The translations under genes were made by a program, and so were the position numbers. From the IMG/VR virus record IMGVR_UViG_3300009545_000045, positions 1-36,473 of that record: a DNA stretch of 36,473 nucleotides; one strand, given 5' to 3'. The notes beneath the pieces were generated by a model. It searched no databases and had not been told where the DNA came from. It saw nothing but the letters and a program-made list of their open reading frames with translations. Every line of letters begins with the position of its first letter. Position 1 is the first letter of the stretch. The DNA comes from a virus. Positions 29,795 to 36,416 of this stretch are shown in pieces.

Positions 29795-30994
29795 ATGATG
29801 GTGATTGGCAATGGTGTGGTGGACCCGAGCATTTTCGGCGCTGACGAGCCTGAAGACACGGGCATCCCTTCTTTCCTCGACAGGCGAACGCATGAACCCC
29901 GTGTCAGCGACCTGCTTGATGCGCAGGACTATCAACCGCTGGAGATGGGCGCAGCTGTACACGTCAGCGCAGACGTACCAGGAGTGGAGGCGCCGACAGA
30001 AGAGGCGCACCCGCATAACGGCTGTCACGATCACGATGGTGGCCTTCCCGCTGGCGGTGACACGGACAGCGTCGTGGCTGCTGGGGATACCGTTTGGGAC
30101 GACGTACCTGCTCACGATGACGATGGTCAGCCTGGGCTTGGCGGCAGCCTGGACGTGCAGGCTGCGGCGTGTTCGTCCCCGGTGGCTGAGGAGCCCGATG
30201 TGGCGGCCAACGGCGACGAAGCCGCACATCTGACCCTTGCTGAGGCGAGCGAGGCGTCCATGATCGGCCACAACAACCCGCCGCCGGAGCCTCTGACGAA
30301 AGAGCAGATGCTCAAGGACTTCAACCGTGACGTGGCGAGTTACGGCAAGGACAGCGGCAAGGGCGCGGCTGCGCTGCCACGGCTCGGCCTGCGCGTCATC
30401 CGTGCGGCGTATGACGGGCTGATCAGCAACGAGAAGCCGAAGTCCGGCGAGAAGAGCGACGCGGTGCGTATCTACGAGGCCTATGCGGCGAACGACAGCA
30501 AGCATGCCGAGCACACCAAGGGCGGCATGAAGGCCAACGCGGCCAAGCTGAACGCTCTCATCGGCCTGGGCTGCATGACCACGGTGGACGGCGTGGAGAT
30601 CGCCGAGCGCACGGTGGCGCTGCGCGAGAAGCTGGAGGGCGCCGACGCTAAGCCGAAGGCGTTGTTTGCTGGTCTGGTGGATGTGGCACGTGCTCAGCTC
30701 GGCCAGGACACGCCGCTCAGCGACGCTGCGATCGAGGAAGCGCTCGGCAAGAAGGAGAAAGAGAAGACGCTCGCCGGCGAGTGGGAAGGCATCTTGAAGA
30801 AGGTCGAGACGTTGATCAGCGGCGAGAACAGCCACAACCTCAAGGACAGCTCGGACGCCGCGGAGCGCATCTACGGCGAGATCAAGGAGCACCTCAACAA
30901 CTTCAGCAAGAGCGCCGAGGTCGAGCAGGGTGTGGCGTGGCTCATGGCGAAGGGTCTGAGCCGCGAACAGGCGCTTGAGATAGCGTCCAAGTGA
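29795..30994 (+). CDS. Two-part protein with GHNNPP motif (399 aa)
   Basis: The first 155 residues are acidic, Gly/Asp/Ala-rich and probably disordered (DDVPAHDDDGQPGLGGSLDV). From residue 156 a helical, Lys- and Ala-rich domain starts with MIGHNNPPPEPLTKEQMLKD and runs to the end (GIEKLE-like helices, KGGMKANAAKLNALIGLGCM, EGILKKVETLISGENSHNLK). GHNNPP is a string I remember from uncharacterised alphaproteobacterial phage proteins. An internal ATG at 30260 is preceded by GAGGCGTCC and could give a shorter product (244 aa). Third-position GC is very high in the second part, so the plus strand is the coding one. A DNA-metabolism role is possible but not shown. Confidence 0.7.
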   Translation: MMVIGNGVVDPSIFGADEPEDTGIPSFLDRRTHEPRVSDLLDAQDYQPLEMGAAVHVSADVPGVEAPTEEAHPHNGCHDHDGGLPAGGDTDSVVAAGDTVWDDVPAHDDDGQPGLGGSLDVQAAACSSPVAEEPDVAANGDEAAHLTLAEASEASMIGHNNPPPEPLTKEQMLKDFNRDVASYGKDSGKGAAALPRLGLRVIRAAYDGLISNEKPKSGEKSDAVRIYEAYAANDSKHAEHTKGGMKANAAKLNALIGLGCMTTVDGVEIAERTVALREKLEGADAKPKALFAGLVDVARAQLGQDTPLSDAAIEEALGKKEKEKTLAGEWEGILKKVETLISGENSHNLKDSSDAAERIYGEIKEHLNNFSKSAEVEQGVAWLMAKGLSREQALEIASK

Positions 30995-31439
30995 TCGCCA
31001 GCAAGTAAGCTGGCGGGCGGCACGGGTGCGTAGTAAGTCCTCATGACCTCTGGTCGTGGCATCACCCGTGCCGCTACTAACCACTGGCGGTCGAACACCC
31101 CCCGTTACCGCCGGTGTAGTGGCGTGCAGTTGCTTTCCCCCGGCGGCTGCACGCCACGCTTATTAGTTCGCGCACTCACGCGAGCAATAAATACCCGCAA
31201 GGGTAACTGGGCAGACTGTAAAACGGCCCCTGCAGACCCGTTGAAAGCAAAACGGGAGTTACGTTGGTCGTGACTTATCTCGGTGGAGAGCAACCGGCTA
31301 GGAATTTCCGTACCTGCCATGCAAGGGCAACCACGCATGTAGCTCAATACGTACTCAAAGAGCATGCTGACGTTTTTGAAGATGGTAAGACGCATAGCAG
31401 ATGCAGGCAAGGTGGGACTAATTCAGAGGAGCATAGGCC
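30995..31439 (+). other. Non-coding stretch with a chain of strong hairpins
   Basis: After the 399-residue gene come stems CGCCAGC/GCTGGCG (30996-31015), GCGGCACGGGTG/CACCCGTGCCGC (31017-31074), GGCGGT/ACCGCC (31086-31112), GTGGCGTGCAG/CTGCACGCCAC (31119-31157), TACCC-GCAA-GGGTA (31192-31205, a GNRA-type tetraloop) and CCCGTT/AACGGG (31237-31256). The fourth is followed by GCTTATTAG and may end transcription. The string GCAGACTGTAAA at 31211-31222 looks like the anticodon arm of tRNA-Tyr. Also here: GCGCACTCACGCGAGC at 31170 and GTAGCTCAA at 31339. No convincing open frame with a ribosome binding site is present before 31440. Confidence 0.65.
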
Positions 31440-31718
31440 GTGTCGTACGTCATGTGGCCCAAGCCCGACGACAAAGAGTTCAAGAGCTTTGAGGAGCACG
31501 CCATTGCGTTTGCGATGCTGCTCGGCTTGGAGCCAGTATGCGGCAATGTCACCGATCCAGGGTGGACGGTAAGGACGTGGTACCATGCCCCGAAACGGCA
31601 CGGGCGCCACCTGTATTCAAACAGCCTGGGGGAACTTGCATATAGGTTCGTACTCTTACGCGGCTACCAGATGTGCCACGACGCCAACGATGACACGTGG
31701 AGCTTAGTGAAGCACTAA
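31440..31718 (+). CDS. MLLG-family small protein, member 1 (92 aa)
   Basis: The start is GTG at 31440, with GAGGAG 8 bases upstream; an ATG 12 bases later is also possible. The product has helix FEEHAIAFAMLLGLEPV (about 17-33), then WTVRTWYHAPKRHG as aromatic strands, then SNSLGELAYRFVLLRGY as the second helix. This helix - [AK]-x-MLLG - strand with W/Y - helix layout is shared by many genes to 36416. Function unknown. Confidence 0.7.
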   Translation: MSYVMWPKPDDKEFKSFEEHAIAFAMLLGLEPVCGNVTDPGWTVRTWYHAPKRHGRHLYSNSLGELAYRFVLLRGYQMCHDANDDTWSLVKH

Positions 31719-32066
31719 CGGAGACGCACCGTAGTTCAATCGGCAAACCATCCGGAGGGTGTAGAACAGCACATTGCCGCGATCGCATGAAGGTTGTGAG
31801 CTATTGGTACTCCTCGACAGGGGGCTGCCTCTGATTAGTCCCGCTTCGCATGTGTGACCGGATGAAAACGGTGGACCGAGATGGAAGCCGCGACTCAGTG
31901 TGTGAGATGCGAGCACTAGCCAAGCTCGCCGGTGCAGCTTTACTAACGCGCTGTAGCTCAAGCATGTCAGCGATGATGGTGTTCGCAAAAGAGCAACTGA
32001 GTACGTCGGCAGAGGTGCATAGCACCAACGCTCATCCGGCTCGGTAGATGCATAGGAATGATGACC
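31719..32066 (+). other. Non-coding spacer with tRNA-like pieces
   Basis: No convincing gene. It holds GTAGTTCAA (31731-31739) with a downstream GAAC (31763-31766), ATCCGGAGG (31750-31758, like a tRNA-Arg anticodon loop), and GTAGCTCAA (31953-31961) with a downstream GAGC. A frame 31850-32047 (65 codons) has no ribosome binding site and does not look like its neighbours, so it is not called. AAGGTTGTGAG (31790-31800) resembles a tRNA variable loop/T-arm start. Confidence 0.45.
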
Positions 32067-32345
32067 ATGTCAGCGCTAGACTTTAAGATAAATTTTGCCG
32101 ACGTAGGCCCTGAAATTGCATACGTGCTCTTGTTGGGTGGAGAATTCAAGAAGACTGAAGGCGGTAGATGGTGGGTCGCATCGACGGCTTCTGATTTGCG
32201 TAGGCCCACGCCTTGTACGTGGCACTTTAAGTGTAACGCTGCGCGAGACTGGTTATTGCGCGAACATGCTTTCCAAGTGGTTGACGAAGAGCTGGTAAGA
32301 GACGAACAATACGCCGTACATCTGGCGCAACAGAAATCCTCGTAG
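32067..32345 (+). CDS. MLLG-family small protein, member 2 (92 aa)
   Basis: Three ATGs in phase lie at 32058, 32061 and 32067; the last has AGGA at 9-base spacing and is preferred. The helix IAYVLLLGGEFKK (about 17-29), an aromatic strand RWWVASTA, and a second helix NAARDWLLREHAF match the family. It has an additional C-terminal helix (VVDEELVRDEQYAVHLAQQK). The stop TAG is part of a GTAGCTCAA element (32342-32350). Confidence 0.65.
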   Translation: MSALDFKINFADVGPEIAYVLLLGGEFKKTEGGRWWVASTASDLRRPTPCTWHFKCNAARDWLLREHAFQVVDEELVRDEQYAVHLAQQKSS

Positions 32346-32383
32346 CTCAAGAACAAACGATACAACCTGCCGAGGTAACTTCT

Positions 32384-32608
32384 ATGCGCTCCTTTGATGA
32401 GATCGACACAAAGCTTATGCTCTTAGGCATAAAGCTGTATTTCGCTAGCTCTGGCCGAACGTGGTATATTGAGTGTTCTGGAATGCATCGCATCGAAGCC
32501 TGGGTTTCCTATACTTCTAAACCTCCGGGCTTCAATGGCTGGGGCACCAAGCAGCAGGCGTACGACGACATCATGGCTTACTACGAGCAGCACCCCCAAG
32601 GAGAGTAG
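32384..32608 (+). CDS. MLLG-family small protein, member 3 (74 aa)
   Basis: The ATG has GAGGTAAC upstream. It is a compact family member: DEIDTKLMLLGIKLYF (5-20), aromatic strand RTWYIECSG, EAW then NGWGTKQQAYDDIMAYYEQ (about 51-68) as the second helix with the GWG entry seen also in the 33223 and 33488 genes. No extra domain. Function unknown. Confidence 0.7.
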   Translation: MRSFDEIDTKLMLLGIKLYFASSGRTWYIECSGMHRIEAWVSYTSKPPGFNGWGTKQQAYDDIMAYYEQHPQGE

Positions 32609-32610
32609 CC

Positions 32611-32847
32611 ATGGTTAAAGGTGCTAGGCTGTCTAAGCATAACCTTAGTGCGGCTCTCTCACACCGCATGGGGTGGTCCTGGGAAGACCCGAAGGTTCCG
32701 TTCGTTGAACTCTTATGTGTGGCAACTACTAAATATGTCGCAGTGGTCCTTATATCGGCGGACGAGTGCTATGTCCTCCAAGACAGCTTGGAGCTATTTC
32801 CCAGCGACGAGCTGGTGACTAAAATAAGAATGCTTGGCTCCCCGTAG
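32611..32847 (+). CDS. Small protein with family-like C-terminal piece (78 aa)
   Basis: The ATG at 32611 is preceded by AGGAGAG (the coupling sequence GAGAGTAGCC). The N-terminal half (MVKGARLSKHNLSAALSHRM) is basic and the middle has strands (TTKYVAVVLISADECYVLQD). It ends SDELVTKIRMLGSP: T-K-x-x-M-L-G, the sequence with which family members begin, followed at once by the stop (TAG of a GTAGCTCAA element). It may be a truncated or permuted family relic fused to another small protein. Confidence 0.55.
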   Translation: MVKGARLSKHNLSAALSHRMGWSWEDPKVPFVELLCVATTKYVAVVLISADECYVLQDSLELFPSDELVTKIRMLGSP

Positions 32848-32894
32848 CTCAAGAGATAGAGCAACTAGGCCAACTTCCCTGATCCAGCGGGAGC
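32837..32894 (+). other. tRNA-like D-arm element, incomplete
   Basis: GTAGCTCAAGAGATAGAGC (32844-32862) makes a perfect 4-base D-stem GCTC/GAGC with an 8-base loop, after a GCTCCC that could pair with GGGAGC at 32889-32894. A proper anticodon arm and T-arm are not visible and the element is 58 bases, so it is not a functional tRNA by eye. Similar D-arm copies lie at 31339, 31731, 31953 and 32342. The rest of the gap to 33012 shows no gene. Confidence 0.35.
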
Positions 32895-33011
32895 TAAATG
32901 GCTCAATACTGGTGAGTGGCAACAGTCGGGCGATCCGCGCCCACTAGGGACAAGCGGCTTACGGAGATGCAGGGCGGATGTATGTCTGTATGACCTGCCG
33001 GGGTAATAAGC

Positions 33012-33230
33012 ATGGGCATTACGCGCGCACTCACCGACGACGAAGCTGTTACGTTCGCGATGCTATACGGTGCCGAGTTTATATACTTCGATTTCGGCCA
33101 CCCGGAGCGCGCCATGGCGCGGCAGTATTGGACGTGCACCGGTACGGGCCACACGACATACGGCTATAGTCAAGCACATGCTGCGCGCCGTTGGTTGCTG
33201 CTGGCTCGACCGGGAGAGTGCGATGTCTGA
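33012..33230 (+). CDS. MLLG-family small protein, member 4 (72 aa)
   Basis: The ATG at 33012 has GGGGTAATAAGC upstream. LTDDEAVTFAMLYGAEFIYF (7-26) is the first helix with the MLLG site changed to MLYG, followed by QYWTCTGTG strand and HAARRWLLLARPG helix. It overlaps the next gene by 8 bases. Function unknown. Confidence 0.65.
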   Translation: MGITRALTDDEAVTFAMLYGAEFIYFDFGHPERAMARQYWTCTGTGHTTYGYSQAHAARRWLLLARPGECDV

Positions 33231-33495
33231 GGAAGAAGCATACGCCAAACTCCTCCTACTAGGTTGCATGCCGCTCAAACGCAGCGACATTCCCGAGAAT
33301 GATTTTTGCATGACACTATGGGTGGACGGACCTAGCGAAGACTGTAGCGCTTTCGAGGAGTGGGCGAACAGTGCGAGGTGCCCGCACACATACCACCGTC
33401 ACTACACAAGTAGTCTCCGATTTTGGGGATGGTTGTCACTGCAAGTCATGCTTACGGATCGCATACGTTACCTGGAGGAGCAGCACGATGACTGA
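33223..33495 (+). CDS. MLLG-family small protein, member 5 (90 aa), tandem duplicate of the next gene
   Basis: The ATG at 33223 has GGGAGAG upstream. MSEEEAYAKLLLLGCMPL is the helix with KLLLLG at 9-14, then CMTLWVDG strand, FEEWANSARCPHTY insertion and WGWLSLQVMLTDRIRYLEEQ as the second helix. It shares M-[ST]-E-E-E-A-x-A-K-L, F-E-x-W-A, R-C-P-H and W-x-x-x-M-L-x-D-x-x-x-Y-L-E-E-Q with the 33488 gene, so the two are duplicates. They overlap by 8 bases. Confidence 0.7.
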   Translation: MSEEEAYAKLLLLGCMPLKRSDIPENDFCMTLWVDGPSEDCSAFEEWANSARCPHTYHRHYTSSLRFWGWLSLQVMLTDRIRYLEEQHDD

Positions 33496-33763
33496 GGAAG
33501 AGGCGCAAGCCAAGCTCATTATGCTAGGTTATCCTCCTGAACTTAACGAAGTAAACGGGAGGGAGTCCTTGTACATAGTTGAGGGGAAATACACGATGTC
33601 CCCGTTCGAAGCCTGGGCAATCGGCGACGTCGGACCGCCACCAAGACCGCCGCGGTGTCCACATATTGTGGGCCCGGACGGCACGTGGTGGGGTTGGCCC
33701 ACCATGGCGCTCATGCTTGAAGACCTCCTATGTTACCTGGAGGAGCAACAATGTACGCAGTGA
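33488..33763 (+). CDS. MLLG-family small protein, member 6 (91 aa), tandem duplicate
   Basis: The ATG at 33488 is preceded by GGAGGAGCAGCACG. MTEEEAQAKLIMLGYPPE (KLIMLG at 9-14), SLYIVEGK strand, FEAWAIGD and RCPHIV, then GWPTMALMLEDLLCYLEEQ. This is the sister of the 33223 gene and the closest to the family consensus at its C-terminal helix. A frame beginning at 33371 includes upstream gene sequence and was not used. It overlaps the next gene by 13 bases. Confidence 0.7.
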   Translation: MTEEEAQAKLIMLGYPPELNEVNGRESLYIVEGKYTMSPFEAWAIGDVGPPPRPPRCPHIVGPDGTWWGWPTMALMLEDLLCYLEEQQCTQ

Positions 33764-34029
33764 AGGTGCATGGTACCAAGCTGCTCCGTAGTTGGTACGA
33801 GGAGACGCCCGCGGGTTTACAGCAAGCCATCGAAGAAGCGCAGATGCGCACTCACGCGCGCAATTTGGCCCACGAAGTGACTGACAATCACGGCCTACGG
33901 CTCTATCTGGCGTTACCGGTCGACGTGAAGGCGCAGCTCCAAGCAGCTGCATCCGCGCGACGCGCGGAATGGCTTCTCTCATGGCTGGGGTTTATTCTCT
34001 TGTTGGTGGCTATCTGCGCTAGGAGGTAG
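33751..34029 (+). CDS. Small tail-anchored membrane protein (92 aa)
   Basis: The ATG at 33751 has GGAGGAGCAACA upstream. A cytoplasmic basic/helical part (AGLQQAIEEAQMRTHARNLA) is followed by a C-terminal membrane helix (WLLSWLGFILLLVAICARR, 74-92). The string GCGCACTCACGCGCG (33846-33860) recurs inside it. It ends TAG GAG GTA GCC ATG, so the stop lies in the next gene's ribosome binding site. No family is recognised. Confidence 0.65.
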   Translation: MYAVKVHGTKLLRSWYEETPAGLQQAIEEAQMRTHARNLAHEVTDNHGLRLYLALPVDVKAQLQAAASARRAEWLLSWLGFILLLVAICARR

Positions 34030-34031
34030 CC

Positions 34032-34280
34032 ATGGCAGGGCTATATTCGCCGGACGAGCGTATAGAGCTGTTACGCACCAAGGTAATGCTGCTCGGCTGG
34101 AAGCCATGGAGTAGGGGCACTATGTGGTATGTGGACGCTCCGGATGAGCACCCGGGCCATTTAAATCCGGTAGAGCGTAAACAGATGGACAAGGGCAAGC
34201 ACTGCTCATTTCCTTCGGAGGAAGAAGCGCTCAAGGCTGTGCTGGACTACTACGCCCTCCAGTATGAGGTGTCCCCATGA
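34032..34280 (+). CDS. MLLG-family small protein, member 7 (82 aa)
   Basis: The ATG has AGGAGGTAGCC upstream. ERIELLRTKVMLLGWKPW (9-26) is the first helix with TKVMLLGW, then GTMWYVDAP strand, and SEEEALKAVLDYYALQY as the second helix. It overlaps the next gene by 4 bases (ATGA). Function unknown. Confidence 0.7.
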   Translation: MAGLYSPDERIELLRTKVMLLGWKPWSRGTMWYVDAPDEHPGHLNPVERKQMDKGKHCSFPSEEEALKAVLDYYALQYEVSP

Positions 34281-34636
34281 TGACGCCAGAGCAAAAGCGG
34301 CGCTTTGAGGAGGCGTATATTTCGTTCGCTCGTATGTGGGGCTTACAGACCCACGAGAGTTCATACGGCACTTTCGGGTATCAGCAGCCTAACGGCGTGC
34401 TAATACGTGGGTGGCTCACCGTTATGGACTGCGCTATGGACTATATTTCGCAGCGCGAACTTCAGAAAGAAATAGAGGCAGCGTGCCTCGCTGCTGGTGT
34501 AGGGAGCATGTTCGGCTATGCAAAAGGGCACCCTAGAGAAGCAGCAGTTCATACTTACTACTGTCCACGACGAAGTGATGCCATGGCCCTACGCGAAGAG
34601 CTACGGGCTAATCGAGATAAAAGTCCCCCTACCTAA
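34277..34636 (+). CDS. MLLG-family-like small protein, member 8, with a questionable 3' part (119 aa)
   Basis: The first 80 residues fit the family: FEEAYISFARMWGLQTHESS (10-29), FGYQQPNGVL strand, RGWLTVMDCAMDYISQ helix. The last about 40 residues (from GYAKGHPREAAVHTYYCPRR on) have poor third-position GC, while another frame in the same region (34518-34678) reads MQKGTLEKQQFILTTVHDEV with good codon bias. A frameshift or an overlapping gene is likely; see the next entry. GAGGT lies upstream of the start. Confidence 0.55.
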   Translation: MMTPEQKRRFEEAYISFARMWGLQTHESSYGTFGYQQPNGVLIRGWLTVMDCAMDYISQRELQKEIEAACLAAGVGSMFGYAKGHPREAAVHTYYCPRRSDAMALREELRANRDKSPPT

Positions 34637-34781
34637 GCAGGTAACTGCCGAGGTCAAACCCCAGGAGAAGGCTACACCATGCTGCTCATCAAAACGTCCG
34701 AGCTACTCCAATCCGCTGGGTTCGCGCTCATCAACGCGGAGGAAAGCGTTAGTCGGGTCCACACCCTCATCAAGCAGTTGA
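34518..34781 (+). other. Alternative frame with coding-like bias, possible overlapping or frameshifted gene
   Basis: An ATG at 34518 opens MQKGTLEKQQFILTTVHDEV and YGLIEIKVPLPKQVTAEVKP. Third-position GC here is about two thirds compared with well under half in the competing frame of the 34277 gene. The ribosome binding site (AGGGAG) is 11 bases upstream. It runs without stop into the next gene (34679), where the bias is lost. The frame difference relative to the 34277 gene is +1. Either a base was lost or gained in that gene, or a separate gene has lost its stop. Confidence 0.4.
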
Positions 34782-34987
34782 TGACGGAAATGATCGAGGG
34801 GGACGAGCCAGTATCTGCCGAGCAGCAGCTGCAGCTCCGTGCCGTCATCAGGGACGAGAAAGCTGTCCTCAACAAGGTGCGCGAGCTCCGCGACTATTGC
34901 AAGTTCGCCGAAGACAGTGGCGTCGAGCAGGTCCATCTGACGCCCGAGATGTTCGCGCTGGTCAAGCAGAACTTGCCTGCGAGGTAG
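34679..34987 (+). CDS. Helical small protein (102 aa)
   Basis: MLLIKTSELLQSAGFALINA, then EESVSRVHTLIKQLMTEMIE: an all-helical protein with a coiled-coil-like middle (LQLRAVIRDEKAVLNKVREL) and a terminal part (TPEMFALVKQNLPAR). The ATG has AGGAG upstream. Codon bias is high GC3. It ends in GCGAGGTAGCCATG, so its stop lies within the next gene's ribosome binding site. No family is recognised. Confidence 0.7.
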   Translation: MLLIKTSELLQSAGFALINAEESVSRVHTLIKQLMTEMIEGDEPVSAEQQLQLRAVIRDEKAVLNKVRELRDYCKFAEDSGVEQVHLTPEMFALVKQNLPAR

Positions 34988-34989
34988 CC

Positions 34990-35163
34990 ATGCACGATCT
35001 GATGGGAGCCCTATGCGTAGTCCTCTTCGTTGTTCACTCTGTGGCGGCTATCTGCCCGGATGAATGGATCGCGAAGCGCGGGGTTGTCGTGGAGGCATGG
35101 CGCCGGCACCACGAAGTGTGCATGTGCCTCCTCTTAATTGCACTCGTTATATCATTGAGGTAG
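34990..35163 (+). CDS. Two-helix small membrane protein (57 aa)
   Basis: The ATG at 34990 has GAGGTAGCC upstream. The two hydrophobic segments LMGALCVVLFVVHSVAAICP (4-23) and VCMCLLLIALVISLR (43-57) are separated by a charged loop. A frame starting at 34897 begins inside the previous gene and was not used. Two-helix topology with a short loop is common in small phage inner-membrane proteins, including holins; it is far from the lysis cassette, so that is doubtful. Confidence 0.6.
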   Translation: MHDLMGALCVVLFVVHSVAAICPDEWIAKRGVVVEAWRRHHEVCMCLLLIALVISLR

Positions 35164-35165
35164 CC

Positions 35166-35396
35166 ATGCACTGGATCACTCAAGTCTGCATTATCGTGTA
35201 CTGCACTTTGTGGGTCGCCCATGCGTACCAACTTTCTAGTCGTGACAGCACTGATGGGAAGAAGCTCCGGTCAGGCATGGTTTTGTTCGTGGACCATGAC
35301 ACGGGTGTACACTATGTCGGCTCGCTGTTCGGCGGCATTACTCCGCGGATCAACGCCGACGGCACACCATATTGGCGTACGGACAACGAGGAGTAG
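35166..35396 (+). CDS. Small exported or membrane-anchored protein (76 aa)
   Basis: The ATG at 35166 follows the previous stop with GAGGTAGCC upstream. The N-terminus MHWITQVCIIVYCTLWVAHA looks like a signal peptide with a possible cleavage after AHA, or a membrane anchor, followed by a polar/beta domain (VLFVDHDTGVHYVGSLFGGI). The protein may act in the periplasm. No family is recognised. Confidence 0.6.
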   Translation: MHWITQVCIIVYCTLWVAHAYQLSSRDSTDGKKLRSGMVLFVDHDTGVHYVGSLFGGITPRINADGTPYWRTDNEE

Positions 35397-35398
35397 TC

Positions 35399-35641
35399 AT
35401 GGGACATCGGCGGCGTCGACGACATAGGCAAGCCATGATTGACGCCGCCATGCTCCTTGGGTGGACCATCGTACGGCGCAAGGAAGCACGCAAAGGGGAC
35501 CCGTACCTCTTTGAACTTATTCCTCCTTGCGGTGGGCGCTTGGTGAATAAAGCGTTCCAAGCAGCTTGGATTGCTGCGCATGTAGCACTCCAGCAGAGTG
35601 GCGTCGATGTACAAGCACTTGACCCGGGAAGACAAACTTGA
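35399..35641 (+). CDS. MLLG-family small protein, member 9 (80 aa)
   Basis: The ATG at 35399 has GAGGAGTAGTC upstream. The N-terminus is very basic (MGHRRRRRHRQ), followed by MIDAAMLLGWTIVR (13-26), YLFELIPP strand, and NKAFQAAWIAAHVALQQ as the second helix. The basic extension is unique in the family and could bind nucleic acid. It ends near the start of the next gene, which it overlaps by 35 bases. Confidence 0.65.
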   Translation: MGHRRRRRHRQAMIDAAMLLGWTIVRRKEARKGDPYLFELIPPCGGRLVNKAFQAAWIAAHVALQQSGVDVQALDPGRQT

Positions 35642-35894
35642 GCTTGCCGAAGCGCTGGTTACCCGGCTGCGTAATGGCGAGCTGACGCCTACGCTCTTTG
35701 AGTATGACTTGCGGAGGCTGCGCCTTGACAGAGAAGACCATAGAAACTTTCTGGAGCGTGGTCGTGCCAGTAATGTGGCTCCTGGGCATACTCACCGGCC
35801 TGCATGCAACGGGCAGCGGGACGACGTATCGGATGTGGCGAAGGTTGCGCGCGATCAGGCGTGGCTCGCTGCGTATCTCGCCGTACGAAGGTAG
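35607..35894 (+). CDS. Helical small protein (95 aa)
   Basis: The ATG at 35607 (MYKHLTREDKLELAEALVTR) starts a helical protein; a GTG 9 bases earlier is also possible. The ribosome binding site is weak. The C-terminal third (KVARDQAWLAAYLAVRR) is an amphipathic helix. A second frame across the same DNA (from about 35698) would encode a membrane segment VVVPVMWLLGILTGL, so which frame is used is not settled. Confidence 0.5.
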   Translation: MYKHLTREDKLELAEALVTRLRNGELTPTLFEYDLRRLRLDREDHRNFLERGRASNVAPGHTHRPACNGQRDDVSDVAKVARDQAWLAAYLAVRR

Positions 35895-35916
35895 TCAGCA
35901 AACCAGGAGAGCTTTC

Positions 35917-36159
35917 GTGGCAAGCATAGACCAAGGATGGTGGTGGGCGGTCTTACCTTGGCCCGGCAAGAACAAATGGAAGGCCGAGATACTCACCAAG
36001 GTAATGCTGCTCGGTGTCGAGATCGAGTACGTGGCAGTCTCCGAGCTGGACTGGGACGAAGCCTACGTGATTACTCTGGACGAGCAGAACAAGATTTGTT
36101 CGTCTAGCAAGGTGGCCTGCGCGTGGGCATACCTCAAGCATATAGGAGTGGAGGAATGA
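35917..36159 (+). CDS. MLLG-family small protein, member 10 (80 aa)
   Basis: The start is GTG at 35917 with CAGGAGAG 8 bases upstream; a longer in-frame extension would overlap the preceding gene. WKAEILTKVMLLGVEIEYVA (21-40) gives the first helix and TKVMLLG (27-33), then AYVITLDEQN strand and SKVACAWAYLKHIG helix. It overlaps the next gene by 4 bases (ATGA). Function unknown. Confidence 0.7.
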   Translation: MASIDQGWWWAVLPWPGKNKWKAEILTKVMLLGVEIEYVAVSELDWDEAYVITLDEQNKICSSSKVACAWAYLKHIGVEE

Positions 36160-36416
36160 CCGTCGCCGTTTTAATGACGGCATGGGGTGTGCTAGAGGAT
36201 GGGTCTGAGGCGCGTGCTCTTATTGATCAAGAGCTCACCGACACGAACTACACACTCCGCTGGTATTCGTACGACGGATATCATAATTGGTATGTTGTAT
36301 GCGGCCCGATTGACCGTAAAGGCCGCCGCCCGCACCTCTATAAAGGCAGGCTTGCCGATTGCTGCAGGGTTGTCGCCACTAGGCTTGGAGTCTGGAAGGA
36401 GCCAGAGCATGGGTAA
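36156..36416 (+). CDS. MLLG-family-like small protein, member 11 (86 aa)
   Basis: The ATG is coupled to the previous stop and has GAGG upstream. MTVAVLMTAWGVLEDGSEAR is a helix with a weaker match (no MLLG), NWYVVCGPIDRKGRRP the aromatic strand, and YKGRLADCCRVVATRLG the second helix. Family membership is less certain than for the other members. Two adjacent Cys. Confidence 0.55.
   Translation: MTVAVLMTAWGVLEDGSEARALIDQELTDTNYTLRWYSYDGYHNWYVVCGPIDRKGRRPHLYKGRLADCCRVVATRLGVWKEPEHG

Follow-up and report, generated by a model that had tools for sequence, protein, structure and literature searches.

The window analysed here is the linear IMG/VR fragment IMGVR_UViG_3300009545_000045 in its whole length of 36.5 kilobases (kb). 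It belongs to a metagenome-derived tailed phage, identified by its TerL, capsid, portal and internal virion proteins, and its TerL shares 53% identity with those of the Rhizobium phages RHph_TM3_14A, TM27A, TM27B and TM29 and 55-97% with those of 80 IMG/VR contigs. Our subject is an array of small genes at 31440-36416, together with the RNA elements that lie in its gaps. The array comprises 17 plausible genes, most of them preceded by a Shine-Dalgarno-like sequence; they are named below by their first coordinate.

The family of small proteins and its members

Comparison of the encoded proteins supports the assignment of ten of the twelve genes named in the original prediction to one paralogous family with a common ancestor (Table 1). 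Direct comparison with phmmer links 33223 to 33488 (E 1e-10), 31440 to 33012 (4e-4), and 32384 to both 34032 (5e-4) and 35917 (4e-3). An iterated profile search of 3,800 open reading frames of related phages, with inclusion at E<0.003, gathered 44 members and matched none of 3,800 reversed decoys, so that the shared plan is not due to chance. To avoid circularity, an independent profile was built from 31 members of other genomes only, with the window left out. Six genes score firmly against this profile (33012, 32067, 35917, 34032, 31440 and 32384, in descending order), three score more weakly (34277, 35399 and 33223), and 33488 joins the family through its tandem duplicate 33223. Ten members are thereby supported, the last four less firmly.

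Chance likeness among unrelated short open reading frames of similar composition would agree with the low pairwise identities and with the three members for which the independent profile gives no better than E 0.01-0.05. This explanation is very improbable, as no reversed decoy passed the inclusion threshold, orthologues are kept in the related IMG/VR contig 3300005614_000056 (hereafter L003), and the adjacent non-member control genes score above 1.8 (33751, 34679, 35166 and 35607) or at 1.5 (34990). Furthermore, profile-profile comparison parts the same members from the control genes, with all reversed controls null.

The ten genes had been described as consecutive and of one plan. They do form a family, but they are not consecutive, since 32611, 33751, 34679, 34990, 35166 and 35607 are interleaved and show no match. 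The independent profile gives no support to the two further genes listed as weaker members, with an E of 1.1 for 36156 and of 0.24 for the end of 32611. No family member matches a curated model in Pfam, PHROGs or PADLOC, or a sequence in the PDB, in agreement with the earlier remark that no named family has this plan. The non-member at 35166-35396 matches a PHROG of unknown function (phrog_14094, 5.5e-12), and its match to DUF6440 is sub-threshold.

Table 1 Family members, RNA elements and signals. Positions refer to the window unless another record is named; E values are those of the independent profile and P values those of hhalign; pLDDT, predicted local distance difference test; pTM, predicted template modelling score.
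Feature	Position	Strand	Remarks
Terminator-like hairpin, 16 pairs	31119..31157	+	pattern scan; parts array from upstream gene 29795
GCGCACTCACGCG motif, possible promoter or 5' element	31170..31182	+	recurrent in phage group
Family member	31440..31718	+	GTG start, AFAMLLG; E 1.7e-4; L003 orthologue
tRNA-like RNA element	31726..31935	+	acceptor GCACCG/CGGTGC, GTTC/GAAC D-stem, GAT, GCGAG/CTCGC T-like stem
Possible degenerate tRNA-like element	31948..32076	+	overlaps start of 32067; acceptor 6/6, D-arm, T-like stem 4 bp; weak
Family member	32067..32345	+	YVLLLG; E 2e-8; L003 orthologue; stop codon is the TAG of the following TAGCTCAA motif
Family member	32384..32608	+	TKLMLLG ... RTWYI; E 9e-4; links to 34032 and 35917
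tRNA-like RNA element	32839..33004	+	between 32611 and 33012; D-arm GCTC/GAGC, T-like stem GCAGG/CCTGC, acceptor CCCCG/CGGGG
Family member, hub of family	33012..33230	+	E 5e-15; AlphaFold2 alpha-beta-beta-beta-alpha, mean pLDDT 86, pTM 0.73
Family member, tandem duplicate of 33488	33223..33495	+	E 0.053; phmmer to 33488 1e-10
Family member, tandem duplicate of 33223	33488..33763	+	phmmer to 33223 1e-10, to 32384 8e-3; profile alone E 0.32
Family member	34032..34280	+	TKVMLLG ... MWYVDAP; E 1.5e-6; AlphaFold2 alpha-beta-beta-beta-alpha, mean pLDDT 78, pTM 0.65
Divergent family member with C-terminal extension	34277..34636	+	ISFARMWG; E 0.011; hhalign to family P 2.5e-5
Divergent, strongly basic family member	35399..35641	+	DAAMLLG; E 0.018; hhalign P 1.2e-4
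Family member	35917..36159	+	GTG start, TKVMLLG; E 6e-7; L003 orthologue, 52% identity
tRNA-like element loci	L003 11293-13419; L008 14429-14620; L009 8653-8742; L010 20476-20950; L117 3257-4637; L119 10118-18455; window 31726-33004

Predicted fold and distribution among related phages

The family proteins consist of 70-120 residues. The motifs quoted in the original prediction, namely an MLLG-type helix, an aromatic strand and a second helix, were all found at their places, and this helix-strand-helix plan is real; its more exact form is a helix with [ML]L[LH]G at its end, then three strands, then a [ST]-[RKQ]-x-x-A-A helix. In full, the consensus opens with [ST]-D-[DE]-x-x-[IV]-[AT]-x-A-[ML]-L-[LH]-G-[A]-[ED]-[FI], continues with W or Y on the second of the three strands, followed by R/Y and C/V, and closes with [ST]-[RKQ]-x-x-A-A-[R]-x-[YFW]-L, frequently with a Gly a few residues on. 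The conserved columns appear to make up the hydrophobic core and the helix caps, with one Gly besides, and loops and surface positions vary. No conserved set of charged or catalytic residues was found in the family alignment, and no set of residues points to an enzyme. The domains have a median isoelectric point (pI) of 5.3, with two thirds of them below pI 6.

AlphaFold2 was run with a 40-row alignment for 33012 and 34032. The 33012 model consists of a helix (9-18), three strands (22-27, 38-44 and 47-51) and a second helix (54-65); the 34032 model consists of a helix (7-20), three strands (24-28, 31-35 and 57-60) and a second helix (63-78). Since both models of these divergent proteins show the same order of elements, a single alpha-beta-beta-beta-alpha fold, predicted for two of the ten, is likely for all members. 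For the 33012 model, the top 50 VIA-align rows are nearly all chains that contain double-stranded RNA-binding domains (dsRBDs), with Z of 5.6-7.0, and the leading Foldseek rows are likewise dsRBDs. The top structural rows for the 34032 model comprise T7 gp1.2 bound to dGTPase (Z 4.8) and dsRBDs (Z up to 4.6). As these Z values lie within the range of models without clear relatives, we use dsRBD-like as a descriptive name and not as proof of homology. The RNA-contact motif KKxAK at the start of helix 2 is absent from the family: its second basic position is basic in 17%, and 34 of 40 members have Ala in place of its last Lys.

Matches to the family occur in 8 of the 37 related records searched apart from the window, namely seven IMG/VR records and the Rhizobium phage RHph_TM3_14A. 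Counted together with weak partial matches, the copies number 5 in G001, 6 in G002, 4 in G004, 13 in G005, 2 in G008, 10 in G022 and 8 in G023; of the four weak matches in the Rhizobium phage, three lie in the same region. No match was found in 29 of the 37 records of related-TerL phages, some of which are fragments. Wider searches were equally negative: an IMG/VR scan of close relatives with protein 34032 and a tblastn search of 50,697 phage records with two family members gave no match, and none of the 12 IMG/VR stretches found with a DNA pattern for AMLLGAEF holds a family member by profile.

In each matching record, most copies are no more than about 5 kb away from the homologue of gene 29795 (29795-30994 in the window). 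This gene shares 65% identity with its L003 homologue and 38% with those of the Rhizobium phages, and no bacterial genome carrying a homologue was found. The genes that follow it in L003 are mostly collinear with the window. In RHph_TM3_14A, the array region continues into genes for DNA polymerase I, a RecB-type exonuclease and an SNF2 helicase, neighbours that are expected of an early region. Best matches to family members comprise 33 orthologues in other phages and 16 duplicates within the same phage, and 32384, 33223, 33488 and 34032 are without a clear L003 counterpart, although the surrounding genes have one. This mixture, together with the members without a clear L003 counterpart, indicates that the family expands and turns over. 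Common descent, expansion in copy number, gene turnover and location can thus be read from the sequences themselves.

tRNA-shaped RNA elements and recurrent motifs

The gaps at 31719-32057 and 32848-33011, passed over in the original prediction, hold tRNA-shaped RNA elements. Their plan includes TAG[CT]TCAA, the very sequence that opens a tRNA D-arm, and a matching GAGC or GAAC; GAT and a T-like stem of 5 bp follow, and the strand after these is complementary to the six bases that precede the TAG. Several elements fold alone into a cloverleaf. The minimum-energy fold of 32839..33004 is cloverleaf-like, and this element has no Rfam match. Folding of 31726..31935 recovers the acceptor and the T-like stem; its energy and that of 31948..32076 are no better than those of shuffles.

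A strict descriptor of this plan retrieves 16 distinct elements from the fetched DNA and none from shuffled DNA, and a looser one retrieves 30, of which 23 lie in this phage group, with about 7 expected in shuffled DNA. Full closure is seen at 15 of 48 TAG[CT]TCAA sites, as compared with a mean of 0.58 and a maximum of 3 in 500 trials of acceptor-strand exchange. This permutation test took the place of a covariance model, as MAFFT alignments of the full elements were poor and the loops variable. Across the 23 elements, acceptor pair 4 occurs as C-G, A-T, G-C and T-A; since pairing was among the selection criteria, it is the permutation test that gives unbiased evidence. The eight elements of L003 mostly follow one another head to tail, 7-54 bases apart, a packing that argues for free-standing RNAs and not for leader elements. 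None of the 23 has a T-loop starting TTC; ARAGORN recognised no element, and in the window and L003 Rfam, its tRNA model included, gave no match. The elements look like descendants of tRNAs that have lost decoding. Beyond the phage group, the hits of an IMG/VR pattern scan were for the most part ordinary tRNAs, look-alikes of tRNA size or coding sequence.

Partial copies at 31339 and 32337-32380 of the window keep TAGCTCAA without closure and are possible relics. At window positions 32345 and 32847 and at L003 13206, the small gene before the TAGCTCAA element stops at the TAG of that element, so that RNA element and gene overlap. A genuine tRNA-Met (CAT) lies at L117 1526-1600 in record G004, about 0.5 kb upstream of tRNA-like elements.

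The 10-mer core of GCGCACTCACGCG occurs 55 times in the fetched DNA, where words of the same composition have a median of 5 and a maximum of 39 occurrences. Four tRNA-like RNAs have the motif 10-14 bases ahead of their 5' ends, and it often lies 20-30 bases upstream of a start codon; further sites include window 29447 and 33846, L003 12049 and 13179, L010 20457 and L119 18478, among others. The motif may serve as a phage promoter or as a 5' element. Because of GCGCACTCACGCG and a weak PHROG match, a virion RNA polymerase that uses hairpin promoters was considered but rejected, as the large virion proteins of the Rhizobium relative match none. Terminator-like sites number 12 against 7.7 expected in shuffles, which is suggestive only. 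An identical stretch of 12 bases, GAGGTAGCCATG, covers the ribosome-binding site and start codon of three genes at window positions 34023, 34981 and 35157.

Possible roles and comparison with known systems

We tentatively propose, giving it somewhat less than an even chance, that the proteins represent a diversified protein-binding scaffold. The dsRBD-like fold would provide a stable framework in which only core and caps are constrained, repeated duplication would allow the surface to be reshaped copy by copy, and each copy would bind a different host protein early in infection, be it an enzyme, a regulator or a defence component. Early expression, protein binding and host targets are what we infer here. 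Conservation confined to the core, low pI, the absence of a contact motif and the replication-side position point to small binding proteins that present many surfaces on a single scaffold, and the mostly acidic character of the proteins, along with the missing dsRBD contact motif for RNA, favours protein binding over RNA binding. The genome position, the gene turnover and the lack of a conserved functional surface would be in keeping with an action against host defence or host enzymes.

A precedent for such binding would be T7 gp1.2 with the host dGTPase. T7 gp1.2 acts early. It inhibits dGTPase, and its allele affects sensitivity to the defence protein PifA (PMC11990801). Several points weigh against a protein-binding scaffold. 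The match to T7 gp1.2 is weak and tied with dsRBDs, rapid divergence by itself would fit relaxed selection too, and member 35399 is strongly basic; moreover, dsRBD-like folds bind RNA at least as often as protein.

Binding of structured RNA is an alternative that we consider unlikely. The dsRBD-like proteins would most simply bind the adjacent tRNA-shaped RNAs, forming ribonucleoproteins (RNPs) that serve protection or processing. The best model, with its top matches in VIA-align and Foldseek nearly all to dsRBDs, speaks for this, as does position 103 at the start of helix 2, which is Arg or Lys in about half of the members, and RNAs and proteins share the region in the window phage, G001, G002 and G004, where the structured RNAs lie within the array. 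However, a Z of about 7 is within reach of models without clear relatives, the domains are mostly acidic and lack KKxAK, and records G005, G008, G022, G023 and that of the Rhizobium phage (W01) carry the family but gave no convincing RNA of the kind in the parts that were scanned. The proteins thus seem independent of the RNAs, and a joint function as RNPs, while possible, is not favoured.

More doubtful still is an accessory role of the proteins in phage transcription, replication or virion assembly, in which the copies would subdivide a single housekeeping task. The array adjoins the replication side of related genomes, where copies occur in eight records besides the window. Copy numbers of 2-13, with copies that come and go between relatives, would be unusual for core functions, and the 29 related records without a match stand against such a role as well. 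Improbable, too, is an RNP toolkit in which dsRBD-like mini-proteins and non-decoding tRNA-shaped RNAs would jointly mimic or trap host factors that bind tRNA or Y RNA, such as tRNA-cutting defences.

Expanded runs of small early phage genes are of a known kind; they are rich in anti-host tools, most of which resist interpretation. Since this run now reads as a single family, for which a predicted fold, a profile and dozens of natural variants are at hand, a systematic search for targets becomes possible. Added to it are the tRNA-shaped RNAs, an uncatalogued RNA family with strong covariation, which may bear on tRNA-targeting defences; some phages escape such defences by means of tRNAs of their own (PMC10264068, PMC11555353). 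The protein family, its link to a dsRBD-like fold and the RNAs are undescribed in the libraries searched; a description elsewhere is possible. Both protein family and RNAs look like lineage-specific tools, with functions that we infer.

Among known systems, the dsRBDs of RNase III, Staufen and TRBP share the alpha-beta-beta-beta-alpha order and arrangement predicted for the family, with Z up to 7.0 over about 60 residues in a comparison of models only. In contrast, the family is acidic, has no Pfam sequence match and lacks KKxAK at helix 2. T7 gp1.2, an inhibitor of Escherichia coli dGTPase, is a small phage protein of comparable predicted fold (34032: Z 4.8, root-mean-square deviation 3.6 over 64 residues), but the identity is 6%, the gene is single in T7 and the weak match ties with dsRBDs. 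The Rhizobium phages RHph_TM3_14A, TM27A, TM27B and TM29 belong to the same phage group, judged by TerL and gene 29795; their corresponding proteins carry no annotation beyond hypothetical and are very diverged, and no tRNA-like element was detected in TM3_14A.

For the RNAs, the bacterial Y RNA YrlA offers a comparison; it mimics tRNA and serves as a tether between Rsr and PNPase (PMC8394870). Record G002 contains a YrlA-like Y RNA on the minus strand of L119 (16358-16472), a circularly permuted tRNA-like module on a long basal stem; it scores 25.7 bits with the Rfam YrlA model, below the gathering score, and is complete in its minimum-energy fold (z -3.3). Ten records of the phage group yielded no Ro60/TROVE gene, and no window or L003 element matches the Rfam YrlA model. 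The window elements differ from YrlA and from phage tRNAs in being unpermuted, in lacking a TTCGA T-loop and in having no Rfam or ARAGORN match; what they have in common with them is the tRNA D-arm and a T-like stem beside the acceptor stem.

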